Assembly (NCBI GenBank): GCA_029239975.1
Contig: JARBTX010000004.1
Span: forward strand, 1-64,000
Direction of reading: 5' to 3'
Source: Anaerocolumna sp.
Lineage (GTDB): Bacteria; Bacillota; Clostridia; Lachnospirales; Lachnospiraceae
Length of the DNA: 64,000 nucleotides
Shown here: positions 14,056-61,042 of the stretch, one piece after another
Layout: the number at the start of each line of letters is the position of its first letter
Numbering within the stretch: the stretch's first letter is position 1
The notes under the pieces: model-generated
Database searches by the model: none
What the model saw: only the letters and a program-made list of their open reading frames with translations
Told to the model about the DNA's origin: nothing
Made by a program: the position numbers and the translations under genes

Positions 14056-14967
14056 TTAATAGCCTCTCTTTCTAGTAATTTGTGCATGTTTCACTTTATC
14101 TTTTGGTTCTCTGCCAAACATGAAATAACTAATTAGCAATAGTAATGCAATACTGATTGAGTAAATCCAAGCTGCTGCTGATGCTATACCAAAGCCTCGA
14201 TTCGAAGCATCTAACATACTCTCTCGTATCCAGATAATAACTTCATTTATTTCTGAAGTTGCTAAAAATACAATAATATAAATCGCATTAATTAAAATCA
14301 TCCCTTTGATTGCCGGCATTACTATCTTCCAAAATGAAATCCAGGAGGATGCACCATCGATTGACGATGCCTCATACAATGCAATATCAATCTTTTGAAG
14401 ACCTGCAAAAAATATTAAAATTGGTACCCCTGAATACCACAAAATTAAGATAAGTTGATTAAATAATGTGGTAATCGGTTCAACTAAAAAACCCGGGAAA
14501 TTATTATTTATAATATTAAATATCCCATATTGTTCAATGAGTGGTATGGTTGATGACCCTTCATTTAGAAGCATATTCATAACTGGTCCACTAACAACAA
14601 TGATTGGTAAGAAAAACAAGGTACGAAACAAGCCTTTTAATTTAATTTTTTGATTAAGCAACAATGCAAGTGTTAATGAGAATACTAGAATTAAAGGAAC
14701 CTCTAGTATAATACCTTTGAAAAACTCTAATAAACGTTCTATAAAGTATGGATCCTTCGAGAAAAAATATTTAAAGTTTCTCAATCCGCTAAAAGATACA
14801 TTTCTTCCTTTTGCTGTTATGGTTACCTTACTAAAACTAAATACAATCGATTGATACAAAGGATAAAGAAAAAATATAATAAAACCCAATATCCACGGGG
14901 TTACAAATATAAGCCCTGTTATGCTATGCTTAAAAGCCATATTAAATATTTTTTTTCGTTTTATCAT
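14056..14967 (-). CDS. Sugar ABC transporter permease (UgpA/MalF-like)
   Basis: IALYEASSIDGASSWISFWKIVMPAIKG EAA motif; SD ggagt supplied by adjacent repeat. Confidence 0.92.
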   Translation of the reverse strand: MIKRKKIFNMAFKHSITGLIFVTPWILGFIIFFLYPLYQSIVFSFSKVTITAKGRNVSFSGLRNFKYFFSKDPYFIERLLEFFKGIILEVPLILVFSLTLALLLNQKIKLKGLFRTLFFLPIIVVSGPVMNMLLNEGSSTIPLIEQYGIFNIINNNFPGFLVEPITTLFNQLILILWYSGVPILIFFAGLQKIDIALYEASSIDGASSWISFWKIVMPAIKGMILINAIYIIVFLATSEINEVIIWIRESMLDASNRGFGIASAAAWIYSISIALLLLISYFMFGREPKDKVKHAQITRKRGY

Positions 14968-14970
14968 AAA

Positions 14971-15083
14971 ACTCCATTCTGTCTGCTTTAGCAGACATTT
15001 AAATCAAGATCTGTGAAATTACTTTTTCACAATACTCCATTCTGTCTGCTTTAGCAGACACTTAAATCAAGATCTGAGAAATT
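14971..15083 (-). repeat. Two tandem ~63-bp intercistronic hairpin+SD repeat units (second truncated at upstream stop codon)
   Basis: actccattctgtctgctttagcagacatttaaatcaagatctgtgaaattactttttcacaat followed by near-identical second unit. Confidence 0.9.
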
Positions 15084-17315
15084 CTACTGTATTTCATTAA
15101 CTATGAATGACATGGTAGGAATTATGGTATCACCAAGTTCATAATCCTCGTTTGAATAGTTTATGATAATCTGAACTCCATTCTCATAGACAACGGATAC
15201 AACATTATTATCAACATAGTTATGAGACTGAATTGAAACCCCTTCTACCAAACGAAGAACATCTCCAATCTCCGTATAATACTTTATAATCGTACCTTTT
15301 AAAACATCATACTCTGAGGTATAAATATAAGATGAATTTGTATTTCTTAAAAGATTCGGTGACTCTTCAGTTAATATAAAACTTGGGTAAGCACCATACT
15401 CTATCATTTTCAAGAAAAATTGTTTCTCATTTGCCTCAAAATTGCTATAGGAAGCCCAGTAAGGAATATAACCTTTTAATACCATTGGTATAAAGGGAAC
15501 TTCTTCACTAAGGTAACTATAATTAGAAGTTGATAAAGGCATATCAAAATATTTATTTGCATATTCCCATGTATAATCGGCTGGTTGCTCTAAGGAGAGG
15601 TTTACAGTATCAAATGTTTCCAAGGTTTCAAGCATTTTACTTGCCGTATCCCCTCTAGAGTAGATATCACCACCGGAGTAATAAGAAAACAGTGTATTTG
15701 ATACCTTTGATAAAGCAACATTCTTCACTACAGTATCTTCATATCTTTTCATAAATCTTTTTGCAAACTCAAACGATCTTGATGGTGTAAGATAATACAT
15801 ACTATCAAAAACCCAAGCATTTGTTGGTTCTTCTACTATGATTTGATTAATTCCTTTTACGATATCGGATGATGTATTATAAAATCTTTTCGGATTTGCC
15901 CACAACAGATCTTGATTAAGCACTAAGTCAATATCTTGTTTATTAAGTTTTTCTATTAGCGCAAATAGTTCTCTTTGACTTCCAAGTTTTCTCTCAACTT
16001 TAAAGTTACCACTTCCATAGTTTAGCGATACACCTTTTGTTTGCCACCCAGTATAAACCGGAAGTATATCCTTAACGTCATCTTTGGTTAAATCAGTAAT
16101 AATAGAATCCATTTGACCTACTGTTGTCATAGGGACAACAACATCAAATATAAACCACTTTTTCGAATCTGCACCAAAGAAATCTAATTTTACTTCAAAT
16201 TTATCTTCTTGTTTTTGTAAATCACCTTTACCAATAAGATAATCTTGATAGGTTTTAGCTAATCCTGTATAATTTGCTGCATCACCTGATACAAATTGAT
16301 AACGTATACCAATGTCTCTTATGTAAGGTGTTTTTTCAAAGGTTGGTACACCCGACGACTCCGCTGTTTGCATAGTATAGATTTCTCTAAAATTAAATTT
16401 AGCTGATAACCAGTTATATTCAGTTGTCACGCCATTCGGGTATGCTAAAATTTCCGCATTGTATTGTCCATCTGTAACAATTCCAAGAAACCCTTGTGCC
16501 TTTTTGGTGTAAACCATTCCAAATACAGGTACTGTTATTTTCTCTGGTTCTGTTACCGCTGGTCGGTAGGATTCGCTAACTTGAAATTTATCAATTCCAA
16601 CATTAGCTCCATATATCTTTTTAATATAAGGAGTTTTAAATTTACCGTGGTTATCTTTTAAATCAATTAATGCACCTGCACCTTCTGGCACAAACATATA
16701 TCCAGCTTCCGAGTCCTTACTTGTTGCGCCAAACATAGGATAAAGATAAATGGAACCAAGTTTATAGGTTTCCCCTTCTTTCATGCTATCTTTTTTTACG
16801 TTGGCAGTCATACCACTTTCTTGTAACCTTACTTCTAAACACATACTAAATTCATAATTCTTGTAATTAAGTGTTACATCAAAACCATCTTTATAAAAGA
16901 GAAATGTTTTCTCTGGATTACCTTTTAATAAATCAACACGTTCTGGCATAGTGGAACGCTGACTATAAAACTCAACTGAAACTCCAGAATTTAAAAATCC
17001 TTTCCAGGATTCATTAGAACTCTCGTCCTGTTTTGTTGACTCATATATGAAACCTGTTTTTTTATCCTTAATTTCAACCCCAAGAGTTGTTTCGTCCAGA
17101 TACATTATGTATTCGTCATTTTCAAACGTTACATTTCCTTCACTATTTCTAATTGCAGCTTGGGGGTCTATCACTGGATTATTCGTATCTGCACTCTCAA
17201 AAGTGATTAAACGATCTGATTTATTCGCTAAAACCATAACACTTATGCTAGTAAGTAATGTAATCGTAAGAATACCTGTTACAATCCCTAGGACTATACG
17301 TTTTCTATTTGCCAC
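15084..17315 (-). CDS. DUF5696-like membrane-anchored extracytoplasmic protein
   Basis: N-terminal TM then ~700 aa extracellular region; YIMYLDETTLGVEIKDKKTGFIYES, GYMFVPEGAGALIDL. GTG start at 17315 with SD aaggagg. Confidence 0.7.
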   Translation of the reverse strand: MANRKRIVLGIVTGILTITLLTSISVMVLANKSDRLITFESADTNNPVIDPQAAIRNSEGNVTFENDEYIMYLDETTLGVEIKDKKTGFIYESTKQDESSNESWKGFLNSGVSVEFYSQRSTMPERVDLLKGNPEKTFLFYKDGFDVTLNYKNYEFSMCLEVRLQESGMTANVKKDSMKEGETYKLGSIYLYPMFGATSKDSEAGYMFVPEGAGALIDLKDNHGKFKTPYIKKIYGANVGIDKFQVSESYRPAVTEPEKITVPVFGMVYTKKAQGFLGIVTDGQYNAEILAYPNGVTTEYNWLSAKFNFREIYTMQTAESSGVPTFEKTPYIRDIGIRYQFVSGDAANYTGLAKTYQDYLIGKGDLQKQEDKFEVKLDFFGADSKKWFIFDVVVPMTTVGQMDSIITDLTKDDVKDILPVYTGWQTKGVSLNYGSGNFKVERKLGSQRELFALIEKLNKQDIDLVLNQDLLWANPKRFYNTSSDIVKGINQIIVEEPTNAWVFDSMYYLTPSRSFEFAKRFMKRYEDTVVKNVALSKVSNTLFSYYSGGDIYSRGDTASKMLETLETFDTVNLSLEQPADYTWEYANKYFDMPLSTSNYSYLSEEVPFIPMVLKGYIPYWASYSNFEANEKQFFLKMIEYGAYPSFILTEESPNLLRNTNSSYIYTSEYDVLKGTIIKYYTEIGDVLRLVEGVSIQSHNYVDNNVVSVVYENGVQIIINYSNEDYELGDTIIPTMSFIVNEIQ

Positions 17316-19341
17316 GATAATATACCTCCTTAAAGATTGATACAACGAAATCCATTACTTGCTTAATTAATGCAAATAGGATAAAACCTGCTGCTAGTAA
17401 AATAATCATTGTAAAAGCAGTTAAGAAAATACTACGAAAAGTCTCTTTCACGGTATAGGCCTGTATTTCCTTAATCATTATAATGATAAATATTGCGATT
17501 GCTGCAAATATAAAAAAGTTAAAAAATGATATAATAAAACTTTCATTAAAGGTTAAAACATGACTTAATAAAATCACAATTGGCTTTAACATAATATATG
17601 GCATTAAGCAATATGCTACAGAGCAATAGATGTTTTTAAAGGAACCTTCACCATCTTTAATGGAGCATATTAGATTATTACAAATAAGAAAAAGAGCCAA
17701 TAGTCCAAATACAAATATAAAATCGGTACCTATTTCGTAAAACCCGTCTTCCACTGTTTTAAATAAAAATCCACTATAATATTTATTAATTACATAAATA
17801 ATAAAAAATAAAACGTAGAGTATGGTGGATGATACAATAGAAACTTTTCCTTCAAACTTGATTCCATAGAAAGCATCTGCTGGATTTTTAGGCATGTAGT
17901 TTAGAAATGCTAATTCCTTCATTAATTTCTTGTTTCTTATAACTCTAATCCCTCTTGTAATGCTCTTTATTCCTGGTGCTTTATCTTTTATCTTCCTTAC
18001 TATTCTCCATATAATCGAAAGTAAGATAAGTCCAAAAAATATGTTGATTATATGTTCTCTAATCCATGTATTTCTTAGTTCCCAAAATGCATCAGAATAA
18101 CCTTTGTAATCACCACCAAGTCTTGCGGATTCTAAGGCTAAGTCATACTTTTCTAGTCGGTAGAATGCTTTTCCGATACCTCTCCTTGCATAATCAAATA
18201 AACTATTTTTTCTCAAAACTTCTTGCCATGGTTCATGGCTTTCTATGTAAAATCCTTCTTGAAACAGATAAAGAGCTTTATGTACCGTTGTTGCATATTC
18301 TGTTTGTTCCAAAACAGTAATATTAGCTAATTCTGAGTCTAAAATATAGAGTTTTCCATCGTTATCTACCTCAATTGCCGTTGGAGATACAAATAAACCA
18401 GTTCTATTATTACCATCATCTTTTCCGCCAAACATAAATAACAACTCTTGTTCTCTTGTATATTCACATATAAATCCTTGTGCTGATACCGTATAAATAT
18501 TTTCAATATCGCCAACTGCTACATCAACAACTAAATCATCTACATACCCATTGGAAAGCATATTCTTTCCAGCCATATTAAACTTCTTTAACCCATCACT
18601 TAACGATCCTTGTGTTACCGTATAGATAAGTCCATTGGCATCGATATCAAGATTCAGTGATGCGGCTGGTACATTTTGTTGTAGTGAGTTTTTCATTTCT
18701 TCTGTAAATGCAAGTCTTCTTAGAATCTGTGTAAAGCTAATGGAAGTATTATTAGCTCCAAAATATCCATAGAAATCGCCTACACTACTAAAGGTTAAAA
18801 TACCATTGGCATTACCTTCTGATATAGAGTAGATACTTCCTGCACTGTTAACAACCAATTTACTTGGAGCATACCTGTCATTTGGTGCAAACAGTGGACT
18901 TACTGGCGTTTCGTATGTTTTAATTAAAACTCCTTGCTCAGAATACACTAAAATCTTTTTTAGTTTAGGATCTGCTACATAGATAGTTCCTTCTTCATCT
19001 ACATATAGCCCCGTTGGCCCCTTTAACTCATCTTCTATAGTAAATAGTAAGTTGCCTTTCTTATCACAAATTAGCACTCGTTTATTGCCTGTATCTGCAA
19101 TATACATTTTCCCATCTTTCGTAATAAATAAATCAGATGGATTTTTTAACTTTTCTTCTCCAAATTTATCTAATACAGTTAGTGGTGTATAACCATCTTG
19201 TGTATTTACAAAATAACCATCTTTATCAATTGTTAATGTGGTATATGGTGCATCTGCAGCGTATGCAGTGGCAGGATGTGTAAAAAGAGCAATAAGTACA
19301 ATCGTAAATACTACTTTTTTTATGAATTGATTTAAGTACAT
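17305..19341 (-). CDS. NHL-repeat protein with C-terminal YIP1-like membrane domain
   Basis: Signal peptide; NPSDLFITKDGKMYIADTGNKRVLI / GPTGLYVDEEGTIYVADPKLKKILVY NHL repeats; C-terminal multi-TM region. Confidence 0.75.
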   Translation of the reverse strand: MYLNQFIKKVVFTIVLIALFTHPATAYAADAPYTTLTIDKDGYFVNTQDGYTPLTVLDKFGEEKLKNPSDLFITKDGKMYIADTGNKRVLICDKKGNLLFTIEDELKGPTGLYVDEEGTIYVADPKLKKILVYSEQGVLIKTYETPVSPLFAPNDRYAPSKLVVNSAGSIYSISEGNANGILTFSSVGDFYGYFGANNTSISFTQILRRLAFTEEMKNSLQQNVPAASLNLDIDANGLIYTVTQGSLSDGLKKFNMAGKNMLSNGYVDDLVVDVAVGDIENIYTVSAQGFICEYTREQELLFMFGGKDDGNNRTGLFVSPTAIEVDNDGKLYILDSELANITVLEQTEYATTVHKALYLFQEGFYIESHEPWQEVLRKNSLFDYARRGIGKAFYRLEKYDLALESARLGGDYKGYSDAFWELRNTWIREHIINIFFGLILLSIIWRIVRKIKDKAPGIKSITRGIRVIRNKKLMKELAFLNYMPKNPADAFYGIKFEGKVSIVSSTILYVLFFIIYVINKYYSGFLFKTVEDGFYEIGTDFIFVFGLLALFLICNNLICSIKDGEGSFKNIYCSVAYCLMPYIMLKPIVILLSHVLTFNESFIISFFNFFIFAAIAIFIIIMIKEIQAYTVKETFRSIFLTAFTMIILLAAGFILFALIKQVMDFVVSIFKEVYYRGK

Positions 19342-19359: not shown

Positions 19360-20247
19360 CTAATCGTCCTTAAATATTTTCCTTGAAACCTTAGAAATAC
19401 TATATATGATGACCAAAAGTACTAACGATACTGCGGAAGCATATCCCATTTCATACCTTATAAACCCGTAATCTTCTATGTGATTAACCATAAGTTGTCC
19501 AGCATAATTTGGTGTTGGGTTACTACCACTTAATTGAACTCCGATTGCACCAACTGAAAATGTATTGACTACAGCCATAACTGCTGCGAATAACATCTGG
19601 GGTTTCATCATTGGTATGGTGATATAAAACATTTCCTGAAATCTGTTACGTAATCCATCAATGGATGCAGCTTCATAAACTTGTGTATCTATATTTAAAA
19701 TACCTGCAAGTATGGCTAAAAAACCAACACCCATACTACTCCATAATGATACAACTATCATGATAAGAAGTAGGTATTTTCCATCTGTTAAAAAGAGTAG
19801 TGGATCATTAATTATCCCCATATCCATAAGTAGATAATTAATATATCCCATCTGATCTCCAGCAAAAATGATTTTCCAAACTACAGCCATTGCTACACCG
19901 GATGTTAAGGAAGGAGAATATATTAATAATGCCAATATCGTTCTTGGTATCTTATCAATTTGTGCTAACATCCATGCCAATAGAAAGGATAGAGCATATC
20001 CTACTGGCCCAACTATCAATGCAAATATACATGTATTAGGTAAGACTTTCTGCATAAAAACATCATCTTGGGTTAGTAAGTTTATGTAATTTAACAGTCC
20101 AATAAATTTAGGTGTTTGTACTGCATCGTAATTAGTAAAACCTAATATAATAGCTGCTCCAATTGGTATTACTATAAAAACTAGGAACAATAGGAGATAT
20201 GGTAGCAAAAAATAATAAGCTACATTTATTTTAAATTTGTTTTTCAT
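19360..20247 (-). CDS. Sugar ABC transporter permease (UgpA-like)
   Basis: [33 protein letters not shown] motif; start at 20247 preferred because gggag at 20252-20256 is the SD. Confidence 0.92.
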
Positions 20248-20251
20248 TGCA

Positions 20252-20306
20252 ACTCCCATCAGCCTCTTTTAGGCGATTCAATCAATAAGTTGAAACTAGG
20301 GTTCAA
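20252..20306 (-). repeat. Third, diverged copy of the hairpin-TTGATT-hairpin-SD intercistronic element
   Basis: Minus strand: GTTGAACCCTAGTTTCAACTTATTGATTGAATCGCCTAAAAGAGGCTGATGGGAGT, ending in the SD of the downstream permease. Confidence 0.7.
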
Positions 20307-23185
20307 CGCAACCAATCTTTTATCATATTAATATCAGGTATTATAAGTTCTTTTACTGTGTTACCTTTACTATCAATATAACCGAACTCTTCTAACTTCC
20401 GCCCAAGTTCTCGATTAATTTTTTTCTCGGCATCATCTACAGCACTTCTAATATTGACATTTTGGGTAACCACTTTAATTAGTATGTTTCCTAATTCACG
20501 TTCGATAATATAACTACCCGGAACTTTAGGTGCTTCATATGTCCACTCTATTTGTTTCATAATAATTTCTTTATGTTTTGTACTCCATGGAGAAGCCATA
20601 ATAGCATCAAGATTGGCAGAATTCCATAAGTACTCATTTCCAAGTGTTGATTGTAGCGTATAAGCAAATTCAGTTTGAACTTCGGTTGATGTCCACCAAT
20701 CAAGGAATTTCCAAGCTGCTTCACTTTTATTACTAGAACTAAACACGACACAACTCTCCGCTGCACCAGATGTATATCTTAGAACCTCTCCATCTTGATT
20801 TTTAATTCCTGGATATGGAGCAATTGCCCAAGAGTCAGCAAGTTCTGGCGCTGCATTGATTAATAAATTAAAAGTGCCATAGTCTGAAGTACCAATTGGC
20901 ATACGTCCATCTCGAAATGCTTGATAAAAGCTGAGTACTTCATAGTCCATATCATAAATGGTAAAATTCTCTGTTAAGGTTTTTAACCCTTCAATTACTT
21001 CAGGGGAATCTAAATTTGCTCTTGTTTCACCACTTTTTATTAACTCACCACCACTTTGAAATATAAAAGGAGTTGTTGTATTAAAGTTTTTAACAAGGAA
21101 ATTCGATACATGGGTATTAAAACTTAAACCACGCCTAGCTAATTCTGGTAACATCTCTCTTACTTCATCCATGGTGTCAGGAACTTCTAACCCAATTGCA
21201 TCCATAATATCTGTACGATAGAATAAAACATAAAAATTAAATGTTTCAGGTATTGCATAAACACCATCATCACAAACACCTGGTATGAGCATACCCGGGG
21301 CAAACCGATTACCTATTGCCTTAAAGGTATCAAATTCACGCATATTGGCCAAAGCGCCTCTTAGGGCTAAGTCATATACATAACCTGAACTAATTCCAAT
21401 TGCTGCATCTGGAGCTTTTCCTGAAGCATTGGCTAGAATTAACTTTTGTTGATCTGGAACAATGGATAAATTAACATTAATTCCATATTCCTTTGTGAAA
21501 TCGGAATCAGCCATTCTCTGCATGATTTCAAGATATTGTCTTGGACGTGCAACCCAGATTTGTAAAGTTTCACTTTCTGCATCATAATCTGGTGCATAGT
21601 CTTGCTTGGAAAAGGATGCAAAAAAGTGCTTAACATTTAATGACAATCCTTTAAAGAATCCTGTTTTATCTGGTAATTTTGCATCATCTTGATAAAACAA
21701 AATTTTATCAAGTCCTAATTGACTCACACTTATATTTTCAATTACATTGTTTATATTCTGTCTAACCGAACTGGTTCCATAGGAAAATTGATTCAGCTTT
21801 TGTGGTAACTCATTTGGTTTTTCAGCTAAACGTCTAAGTCCTGTAGATGCCACCTTTAACTGTGCTATTTCACCAATATTTTTTTCACCTGCGTTTAATG
21901 TGGCAAGTGCTCCATATACTAAATCTACACTGCCTGCCCATCTAAGAAGTTTTTCATCAATTTCAAATCCATAGTCTTCTAATTTAAAATCTCTGTATTT
22001 ATCTGTATTACCACCAGTTATCTTATTAATAGATAATGCCAAATCATTAATCTCAGCATTTATTTTATTTAAAATTTTAATACTATTTCTCATGTAATCT
22101 AGCGAAATTTCAACGGTAAGTAAATGAGTACCTTTTGTCAGATAAACCGGCGTTTTCGCCACTGTACGGTCAAATTTTTTGGAGTAAGGAAACTCCATGT
22201 TTTGATAAGATTCTGAAGGAATTTCACCATCAATATAGATATTACGATAAACCGAAAAATTAGCTTTTGTACTTTGTCTATAATCAAAGCCTAGATTATA
22301 AAATCCATCTTCTAGCACTTCAAACTCATATTCTATTTTAGTACCACCAGTCTTAAAGGAAGCCTCAGAAATCATGTTTAACGTTTTTTTCTTTGGATCA
22401 TATGGAGTAATATCCGTATTAAACTCTGCTTCTGCACGAATATTAGGAGAATTTCTATAGGTTACATTCTCGGCTTCTATCACAATCAACTCGTCTCCAA
22501 TAGCTTTCTCTGCAATATCCTTAGAAATGGTTGCTTCTTCCGATAAATATAGGTTTCCTAATTGTATAGAACCTTCATTTGCTTTAAAGACTAGTGTATT
22601 TACACCTTTATCTAAATAAATTAGCATAGGTTTACTAAATAAAAAGGCGGTATCGTGTAAGTAAGATGTTTTCCATACCTTTTCTTTTATGGGCATTGCA
22701 ATACATTCATTACCATATCGATCATACTGAACTTCACCCGAGACCCACGTATCACTTACGAATAATCTTTTTAACTCATCGTATGGATATTCACCATTGA
22801 CTTTAAGTGACATATTAGTCGGTAAAATATTATCACCCAATGTCTTATAGTCAAAACCAAATACATAAGCTGCTGCTTCTTTCACTTCAACAGTTAACTT
22901 AATTTCCCTACCTTCTTGAAGAATTAAGTCCTCTGAACTTAAATCTTTCGCTAAATAGGTAATCGTATCACCAGAATATATAGTATCTTTATATTTATTA
23001 AGATATTTTTGATAATCTGTATCTGGCACATTTCCAGCAGATAAATAAGCATCATAAAGTTCATCTAATGTCGTTACATTTGCTGCCATAGTCATCCTCA
23101 GCCCATTACTACCGGAGAACATATTGGTTTGAAATATCAAAGTTATTATTAATATTAGTAAAGCCAGTTTTTTTAATTTCCTCAT
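20303..23185 (-). CDS. Large extracellular protein: N-terminal carbohydrate-binding-like modules fused to a SBP_bac_1-type solute-binding domain
   Basis: Signal-like MRKLKKLALLILIITLIFQTN without a lipobox Cys; C-terminal half WVARPRQYLEIMQRMADSDFTKEYGINVNLSIVPDQQKL...; start 23185 after SD. Confidence 0.8.
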   Translation of the reverse strand: MRKLKKLALLILIITLIFQTNMFSGSNGLRMTMAANVTTLDELYDAYLSAGNVPDTDYQKYLNKYKDTIYSGDTITYLAKDLSSEDLILQEGREIKLTVEVKEAAAYVFGFDYKTLGDNILPTNMSLKVNGEYPYDELKRLFVSDTWVSGEVQYDRYGNECIAMPIKEKVWKTSYLHDTAFLFSKPMLIYLDKGVNTLVFKANEGSIQLGNLYLSEEATISKDIAEKAIGDELIVIEAENVTYRNSPNIRAEAEFNTDITPYDPKKKTLNMISEASFKTGGTKIEYEFEVLEDGFYNLGFDYRQSTKANFSVYRNIYIDGEIPSESYQNMEFPYSKKFDRTVAKTPVYLTKGTHLLTVEISLDYMRNSIKILNKINAEINDLALSINKITGGNTDKYRDFKLEDYGFEIDEKLLRWAGSVDLVYGALATLNAGEKNIGEIAQLKVASTGLRRLAEKPNELPQKLNQFSYGTSSVRQNINNVIENISVSQLGLDKILFYQDDAKLPDKTGFFKGLSLNVKHFFASFSKQDYAPDYDAESETLQIWVARPRQYLEIMQRMADSDFTKEYGINVNLSIVPDQQKLILANASGKAPDAAIGISSGYVYDLALRGALANMREFDTFKAIGNRFAPGMLIPGVCDDGVYAIPETFNFYVLFYRTDIMDAIGLEVPDTMDEVREMLPELARRGLSFNTHVSNFLVKNFNTTTPFIFQSGGELIKSGETRANLDSPEVIEGLKTLTENFTIYDMDYEVLSFYQAFRDGRMPIGTSDYGTFNLLINAAPELADSWAIAPYPGIKNQDGEVLRYTSGAAESCVVFSSSNKSEAAWKFLDWWTSTEVQTEFAYTLQSTLGNEYLWNSANLDAIMASPWSTKHKEIIMKQIEWTYEAPKVPGSYIIERELGNILIKVVTQNVNIRSAVDDAEKKINRELGRKLEEFGYIDSKGNTVKELIIPDINMIKDWLR

Positions 23186-60240: not shown

Positions 60241-60886
60241 ATTTTTCACTTTCTGTATCTTCTGTAGCATTTTCTGAAACAAACTCATCATTTGATTCTG
60301 CTTTGATCATGACTTCTTCAATACACTCCCAAATCTCATCTCTACCTTGTTTTGAAAGGGAAGAAAATGGAATAATTTTTGTGCCTGGTTCCGTTTTCAA
60401 CCCGTTTCGAATCATTTTTATATGTTTATCTTTTTGACTACGATTAATTTTATCAAACTTCGTAGCGATGATAATAGGATGATAACCATTATACACAACC
60501 CATTCATACATATTTCGATCATTCGCAGATGGTTCATGCCTGATATCAATTAAGAGAAAAATAATCTTTAATTGTTTGGATGTTGTAAGATATTTTTCGA
60601 TTAATTTACCCCATTTTGCTTTCAATTCTTCTGAGACTTTGGCATAGCCATAACCTGGCAAGTCAACAAAATATAATTCTTCATTAATATTGTAAAAGTT
60701 TATAGTTTGGGTTTTCCCTGGTTGTGCAGATGTTCTTGCATAAGCTTTACGATTCATTAATGCATTGATTAGAGATGATTTACCAACATTTGATTTGCCA
60801 GCAAATGCAATCTCTATTTTATCATTCTCAGGTAAAACACTGGTTACACCACAAACCGTTTCCAGATTAACACTCTTAACATGCAT
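60239..60886 (-). CDS. engB: Ribosome biogenesis GTP-binding protein EngB/YsxC
   Basis: FAGKSNVGKSSLINALMNRK, FVDLPGYGYAKV, TKFDKI. Confidence 0.96.
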   Translation of the reverse strand: MHVKSVNLETVCGVTSVLPENDKIEIAFAGKSNVGKSSLINALMNRKAYARTSAQPGKTQTINFYNINEELYFVDLPGYGYAKVSEELKAKWGKLIEKYLTTSKQLKIIFLLIDIRHEPSANDRNMYEWVVYNGYHPIIIATKFDKINRSQKDKHIKMIRNGLKTEPGTKIIPFSSLSKQGRDEIWECIEEVMIKAESNDEFVSENATEDTESEK

Positions 60887-60890
60887 AAAA

Positions 60891-61042
60891 ACTCCCGTCT
60901 GCCTGCTTTGCAGGCATTAAAATCAAGACTGTGAAGTACTTTTCTTCACATACTCCCGTCCGCCTGCGTTAGCAGGCATTTAAATCAAGACTGTGAAGTA
61001 CTTTTCTTCACATTATCCCAGTCTGCCTGAGTAAGCAGGCTC
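60891..61042 (-). repeat. Tandem ~61-63-bp hairpin+SD repeats (two full units and a partial third) between lon and engB
   Basis: Units at 60891-60951, 60952-61014, 61015-61042; actcccgtctgcctgctttgcaggcattaaaatcaagactgtgaagtacttttcttcacat. Confidence 0.92.

Follow-up and report, generated by a model that had tools for sequence, protein, structure and literature searches.

A dispersed, tandemly arrayed two-hairpin RNA element ending in a Shine-Dalgarno sequence at gene starts of Anaerocolumna and close relatives

The window, by which we mean the whole 64,000-nt stretch of Anaerocolumna sp. DNA analysed here, carries a sugar-transport operon in which the intergenic space that separates a DUF5696 gene (15084-17345) from the gene of a UgpA-like permease is filled wholly by two tandem units of ~63 nt on the minus strand, each with the layout hp1 (first hairpin), RTCYTGATTT linker, hp2 (second hairpin) and GGGAGT (Table 1). 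The upstream stop codon TAG (15086-15084) touches the first of these units and is overlapped by its degenerate hp1. In the transcript, the second unit consists of hp1 UUGUGAAA-AAGUAA-UUUCACAG, AUC, the linker UUGAUUUAAAU, hp2 GUCUGC-UAAA-GCAGAC, AGAAU, GGAG and UUUU, and is followed by AUG. The original prediction had placed two tandem units of hairpin and Shine-Dalgarno sequence (SD) at 14971-15083 and had assigned to them the SD of the permease gene; both units were indeed recovered there, with 62 and 66 bits, by R1, a covariance model of linker, hp2 and SD, and the last GGAG was located 4 nt before the ATG. The best NCBIfam match of the permease ORF was UgpA at 3e-11, which is under the curated cut-off of that family. 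A consensus scan of the minus strand of 14800-15300 returned neither promoter nor terminator.

Table 1. Units of the element and the adjoining permease gene in the window
Feature	Position	Strand	Parts	Basis
ugpA array, unit 1	15034..15095	-	degenerate hp1 ~15095-15078; linker; hp2 15059-15044; internal SD GGAG 15038-15035	R1 match 15080-15034, 62.4 bits; sequence
ugpA array, unit 2	14971..15033	-	hp1 15032-15011; AUC 15010-15008; linker UUGAUUUAAAU 15007-14997; hp2 14996-14981; SD GGAG 14975-14972	R1 match 15017-14971, 66.0 bits; hp1 of 8 pairs
UgpA-like ABC permease gene, SD from unit 2	14056..14967	-		NCBIfam UgpA; ORF list
lon-engB array, leading half unit	61021..61040	-	hp2-like hairpin 61040-61025 and AGAC, then SD-like TGGGA	sequence; engB orthologues in G003, G004
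lon-engB array, first full unit	60952..61012	-	hp1 61012-60992; linker; hp2 60977-60962; SD	R1 match 60998-60952, 66.1 bits
lon-engB array, second full unit	60891..60950	-	hp1 60950-60930; linker; hp2 60915-60901; SD of engB (ATG at 60886)	R1 match 60936-60891, 63.2 bits
Third, degenerate copy, sugar operon, 5' of second permease	20252..20307	-	hp1 GTTGAA/TTCAAC (20307-20289); linker; shortened hp2; GATGGGAGT; then permease ATG 20247	R1 23.8 bits, E 9e-5; sequence

An array of the same family lies between lon and engB, where a half unit situated after the lon stop codon precedes two full units; R1 matches of the window units were far above chance (E ~1e-16 to 1e-17). Stem pairs of the two arrays change together as had been described (GCCUGC/GCAGGC vs GUCUGC/GCAGAC; GUGAAG/CUUCAC vs GUGAAA/UUUCAC). 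The third copy holds the TGA stop of the upstream gene (20305-20303) inside its hp1, and the permease encoded downstream of it is GlcT-like. The true start of this permease is likely the ATG at 20247, the ATG at 20259 chosen by the ORF caller sitting within GATGGGAG; an ATG in that position can yield wrong start calls. This pitfall, met at 20245-20259 of the window, recurs at many element-bearing genes.

The genome from which the window comes is a 4.8-Mb draft, 92% complete and with 6.5% contamination, and R1 returned five matches in it at three sites, all on one 84-kb contig (G000, contig C101). The G+C content of this contig agrees with that of the other contigs, and a single engB was found in the genome. 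The location of the three sites on one contig may reflect either a lineage-specific cluster or an artefact of binning (misbinning).

That these copies belong to one repeat family was borne out genus-wide by the covariance model, with R1 matches present in 14 of the 15 genomes of Anaerocolumna and close relatives. The best 150 candidates per genome at most were scored and high counts may thus be lower bounds, the most populated genomes having at least 105 (G008), 86 (G011), 80 (G010), 62 (G012) and 53 (G014) matches. Outside the genus, matches at E <= 0.001 were obtained in 4 of the 148 other Lachnospiraceae genera sampled, and a broader sample of the order yielded single weak matches only, in two further Lachnospiraceae genera; a pattern scan of GTDB genomes returned Lachnospiraceae matches only. 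Carriage by viruses was considered and rejected, the pattern scan of viral contigs being without match. Membership of a known RNA family was rejected as well, for Rfam 15 gave no match above gathering score in the window and only sub-threshold chance matches at five element loci. We found no description of this repeat family in open-licence full texts; a keyword search of the paper on transcription start sites of Clostridium phytofermentans (PMC5171806) did not return the word 'repeat', and the passages of that paper retrieved by it contained no such element.

Position and structure were analysed in 169 units from 106 arrays, taken from 98 fetched regions and the window; the sampled copies represent the top of the R1 score list and, as R1 includes the SD, weaker and SD-less copies are under-counted among them. 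In 95 of the 106 arrays an ORF of 50 or more codons, counted if starting 2-11 nt after the last GGAG, began just behind the array on the same strand, at 4-6 nt in 91 cases; several of the remaining 11 still had a nearby start codon or additional SD, and one was at a contig end. A codirectional gene precedes 81 of the 95 sites (median distance 32 nt) and a divergent gene nine. The proteins encoded downstream are unrelated, with 139 Pfam families distributed over 81 proteins and the commonest family present in five, and the element is therefore not the leader of one pathway. A functional regulon or a metabolite riboswitch leader was rejected on these same figures, which reveal no functional enrichment downstream. 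Of 43 arrays that an ORF closely precedes, 25 have the stop codon of that upstream gene within the hp1 zone (e.g., L112, L120, L127, L158 and 20303-20305 of the window), so that terminating ribosomes could open hp1.

Selection on RNA structure, which the original prediction had proposed from the co-changing stems, gained support from the larger set: in an alignment of 130 distinct units, 97.8% of the cells of hp2 remain paired, and five of its six pairs show compensatory changes. Beneath hp2 lies P1, a stem of three pairs (AUC/GAU), and the joint covariation score of hp2 and P1 was 0.295 vs 0.144 in shuffles, none of 500 reaching it, although these shuffles ignore relatedness. The first pair of P1, counted with one unit per site, was A-U in 61, G-C in 11, A-C in 6 and G-U in 3 cases (Fisher p 3e-7, relatedness ignored); P1 rarely forms in thermodynamic folds, where its mean probability was 0.03. 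Few parts of the aligned units vary as little as YUGAUUU, the loop that connects P1 with hp2. For hp1, 68% of copies scored 7 or more as a stem, compared with 2.5% of shuffles, which likewise ignore relatedness, and a recognisable hp1 is missing in some copies. Sequestration of the SD by the linker was rejected as well: the consensus folds so, but SD openness was 0.34 vs 0.35 with shuffled linkers, and the SD-covering alternative pairing UCYUG-A-UU/GAYGGGA had no pair with compensatory change.

On the 5' side, hp1 was clear in the first unit of 51 arrays, and 32 of these carry an SD-like tetramer no more than 14 nt upstream of it, 4.8 being expected from control stretches; the median anti-SD energy was -6.0 kcal/mol at this site, -6.8 kcal/mol at the element's own SD and -1.4 kcal/mol in controls. 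A start triplet begins the hp1 arm in 92 of the 106 copies having hp1 (73 TTG, 13 ATG and 6 GTG) and is absent from the other 14. In predicted folds (n=54) this triplet had an openness of 0.05, compared with 0.58 at the gene start, and by these folds the unit has the look of a closed initiation site with an open one behind it. The SD-like sites left of hp1 are partly remnants of earlier units and partly native-looking sequences such as AAAGGAGAAT; such a site is often an earlier-unit remnant, and not surely the native SD of the gene.

Mean divergence of units was 6% within a locus, 20% between loci of the same genome and 24% between genomes (permutation p<0.001), which points to local tandem growth together with genome-wise similarity. 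Stretches of ~75 nt or more that take in the hp1 loop are nearly identical before unrelated genes in different species, in concordance with the spread of the element that had been suggested from its unrelated host operons. Arrays gain and lose units at their loci. At recG, arrays of 4, 4 and 1 units are present in three sister species and none in the other readable genomes; at yaiI, one species has three units and another the same number from a different family; at the place of the engB array of the window, the sister species G003 and G004 possess just a hairpin resembling hp2 and AGATAGGAGT. There are element-free orthologous sites at all three genes, the flanks there being too diverged for a clean outline of insertion. 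Over 11 orthologous pairs, identity was 90% in the core, 86% at third codon positions, 71% in the hp1 region and 68% in the upstream flank, the last figure to be read against a shuffled alignment baseline of 58%. The difference between core and flank argues for constraint on the core, to the identity of which homogenisation between copies could also contribute.

A second family, seen at yaiI of G009 (L226) and at L233-L262, has the same hp1 (GTTGAAAAA/TTTTTCAAC), the same layout and a similar linker, with hp2 formed by a longer GAATATC-type stem (GAATATCAAATC..GATTTGATATTC) and with AAAGRGG as SD. BLAST matches to it numbered 60 in G009, 39 in G011, 25 in G014 and 23 in G012, and one matching genome was found outside the genus among 200 of Lachnospiraceae. 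At 16 fetched sites a gene start lies directly behind the SD, at one of them behind an array with eight matched copies, and one pair of hp2 shows an A-U/C-G exchange (nine and six sequences).

We read the element as a dispersed and tandemly expandable RNA cassette that replaces the translation-initiation site of a gene, a reading to which we attach moderate confidence. Read as mRNA, the unit of ~63-75 nt would sit between an older SD and the downstream start codon; hp1 would enclose the start triplet, for the most part UUG or GUG with AAA behind it, 5-7 nt past the older SD and so shut that site, while hp2, standing on the short P1 (AUC/GAU) with the near-invariant internal loop YUGAUUU, would be followed directly by the new SD GGGAG, at a distance of 4-6 nt from the real start. 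As to the effect on translation, we infer that ribosomes should initiate at the last SD-AUG, with the inner SDs of arrays acting as decoy or standby sites that may hold 30S subunits. The ribosome or a trans-acting factor probably recognises the conserved internal loop, and units would multiply via local tandem duplication and be copied to other genes. The cassette reading builds on the location of most arrays before an ORF start and behind a codirectional gene, on compensatory changes in hp2 and in the first P1 pair, on an hp1 stem beyond that of shuffles, on the SD-like site 5' of hp1 and the buried start triplet, on a core that outlasts its flanks, on the varying unit number at recG and on the second family repeating the layout. 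It is weakened by a P1 of three pairs that rarely forms in folds, by SD-like sites 5' of hp1 that often stem from an earlier unit, by the lack of hp1 or its triplet in some copies, by the use of a model that contains the SD and by the confinement of the three sites to one contig.

Part of this evidence would also suit a purely selfish mobile repeat of the MITE or REP kind, which brings no benefit to the host and inserts on the 3' side of purine-rich GGAG; intergenic GGAG are mostly SDs, and only copies whose own GGGAG restores initiation would persist. It would account for the near identity of copies that stand before unrelated genes in different species, for the variation of copy number within the genus from a few to at least 105, and for tandem arrays and patchy occurrence over genera. 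Pure selfishness is nevertheless unlikely in our view, because the core at orthologous genes is conserved approximately like third codon positions while the flanks decay. Moreover, hp2 pairing is maintained through substitutions, the Y1 transposase is missing from the element-rich G010 and G011, and terminal repeats were not identified except for an SD-NTGAAA likeness.

Quite unlikely, too, appears an intercistronic module of RNA processing or stability, comparable with the 5' stabilizers of Firmicutes, in which a nuclease would cut the AU-rich linker, with hp1 protecting the upstream mRNA end and hp2 with the SD-bound 30S subunit protecting the downstream end: the closeness of 81 sites to a preceding codirectional gene, the two hairpins flanking a U-rich linker and the SD directly after hp2 are as it would predict, but linker conservation is sequence-specific (TC-TGATTT), beyond the needs of an AU-rich cut site, and nine sites stand behind a divergent gene. 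The near-invariant YUGAUUU loop, closed by P1 and hp2 and adjoining the SD, invites the notion of a global regulatory switch, with a protein or another factor binding the loop and turning many genes on or off; we hold this for very unlikely, an ordinary regulon being disfavoured because the downstream genes lack functional coherence, and copy numbers differing greatly among congeners, while the SD-sequestering pairing is without compensatory change and the SD is as open as with shuffled linkers. Least credible of all is a leader mini-ORF device, with a start at the inner SD-UUG, a short ORF and re-initiation at the next SD. An NUG-AAA a few nucleotides past an SD-like site occurs in most hp1 arms and upstream ORFs often stop inside the hp1 zone, yet the frame, the length (from 1 to >40 codons) and the peptide are all unconserved, and the start triplet is buried within hp1.

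With at least 105 matches in one genome and 106 arrays at mostly unrelated genes, the element takes its place among small interspersed repeats. Bacterial interspersed repeats are usually discussed as intergenic, sometimes altering transcription or mRNA decay; this family is concentrated at translation-initiation sites and, in the best-populated genomes, brings an SD to dozens of unrelated genes. The 5' mRNA stabilizers and intercistronic stem-loop plus SD elements of Firmicutes are single gene-specific sites with a stem-loop directly upstream of the SD; the position of the stem-loop is shared by our element, which, unlike them, is a dispersed repeat family. The Gram-positive BOX repeat (boxA-boxB(n)-boxC), which is described as having multiplied across the chromosome of Streptococcus pneumoniae, is likewise small, interspersed and structured, has tandem inner modules, and is co-transcribed with genes, the expression of which it can alter (PMC3049150); the consulted sections of that paper do not describe BOX with the SD of the downstream gene, whereas our element has one orientation at the SD, an SD ending every unit and other module sequences. 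TAACTGA repeats of Beggiatoaceae likewise immediately precede numerous start codons, for the most part in a single orientation, and were proposed to act on translation, but have 7-nt units, no predicted RNA structure and little SD character (PMC4679880), in contrast to ~63-75 nt, two hairpins and an own SD. REP/BIME are also short dispersed palindromic repeats, some of them arrayed; our element differs from them in its strand-specific placement at the SD and in a copy number uncorrelated with Y1 (RAYT) transposase. REP/RAYT palindromes carry a GTAG or CGTC tag at one end (PMC3733652). This tag is absent from the consensus of the aligned units, in which hp1 is flanked by TTAGG/TAAG and RTC, and hp2 by WAT and AGAT. 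The Y1 transposase was rejected as a driver, with no PF01797 match in G010 and G011 (at least 80 and 86 element matches) and 17 in G002, which has seven element matches.

More tentatively, and as a proposition that we regard as possible though on the whole doubtful, the element may belong to a class of mobile elements specialised for the ribosome-binding site, which places copies of itself beside the SDs of unrelated genes, shuts the old start within one hairpin, supplies a new SD behind the other and tunes each gene by unit number, the second family being an independent dialect of it; if so, the genome would re-wire the initiation of dozens of genes in this way. Should the element act on translation, the 4/4/1 arrays at recG would constitute a natural copy-number series for the protein output of dispersed RNA modules, and the invariant loop points to a candidate factor worth seeking.

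Two further observations concern variants and neighbours of the element. A subfamily of G008 (L082, L084, L085, L087 and L088) has the hp2 loop enlarged by ~15 nt (GTGTGCAAGTGC...GCACAC). At L131 and, more clearly, at L138 (GTGGCAGTGCCACATCTGTAAGCAGATGCGACATACAATGGGAG), a longer repeat upstream of the element likewise ends in an SD-like GGGAG; ~97 nt of upstream sequence are common to two unrelated loci, and a third SD-ending repeat family is thus likely.
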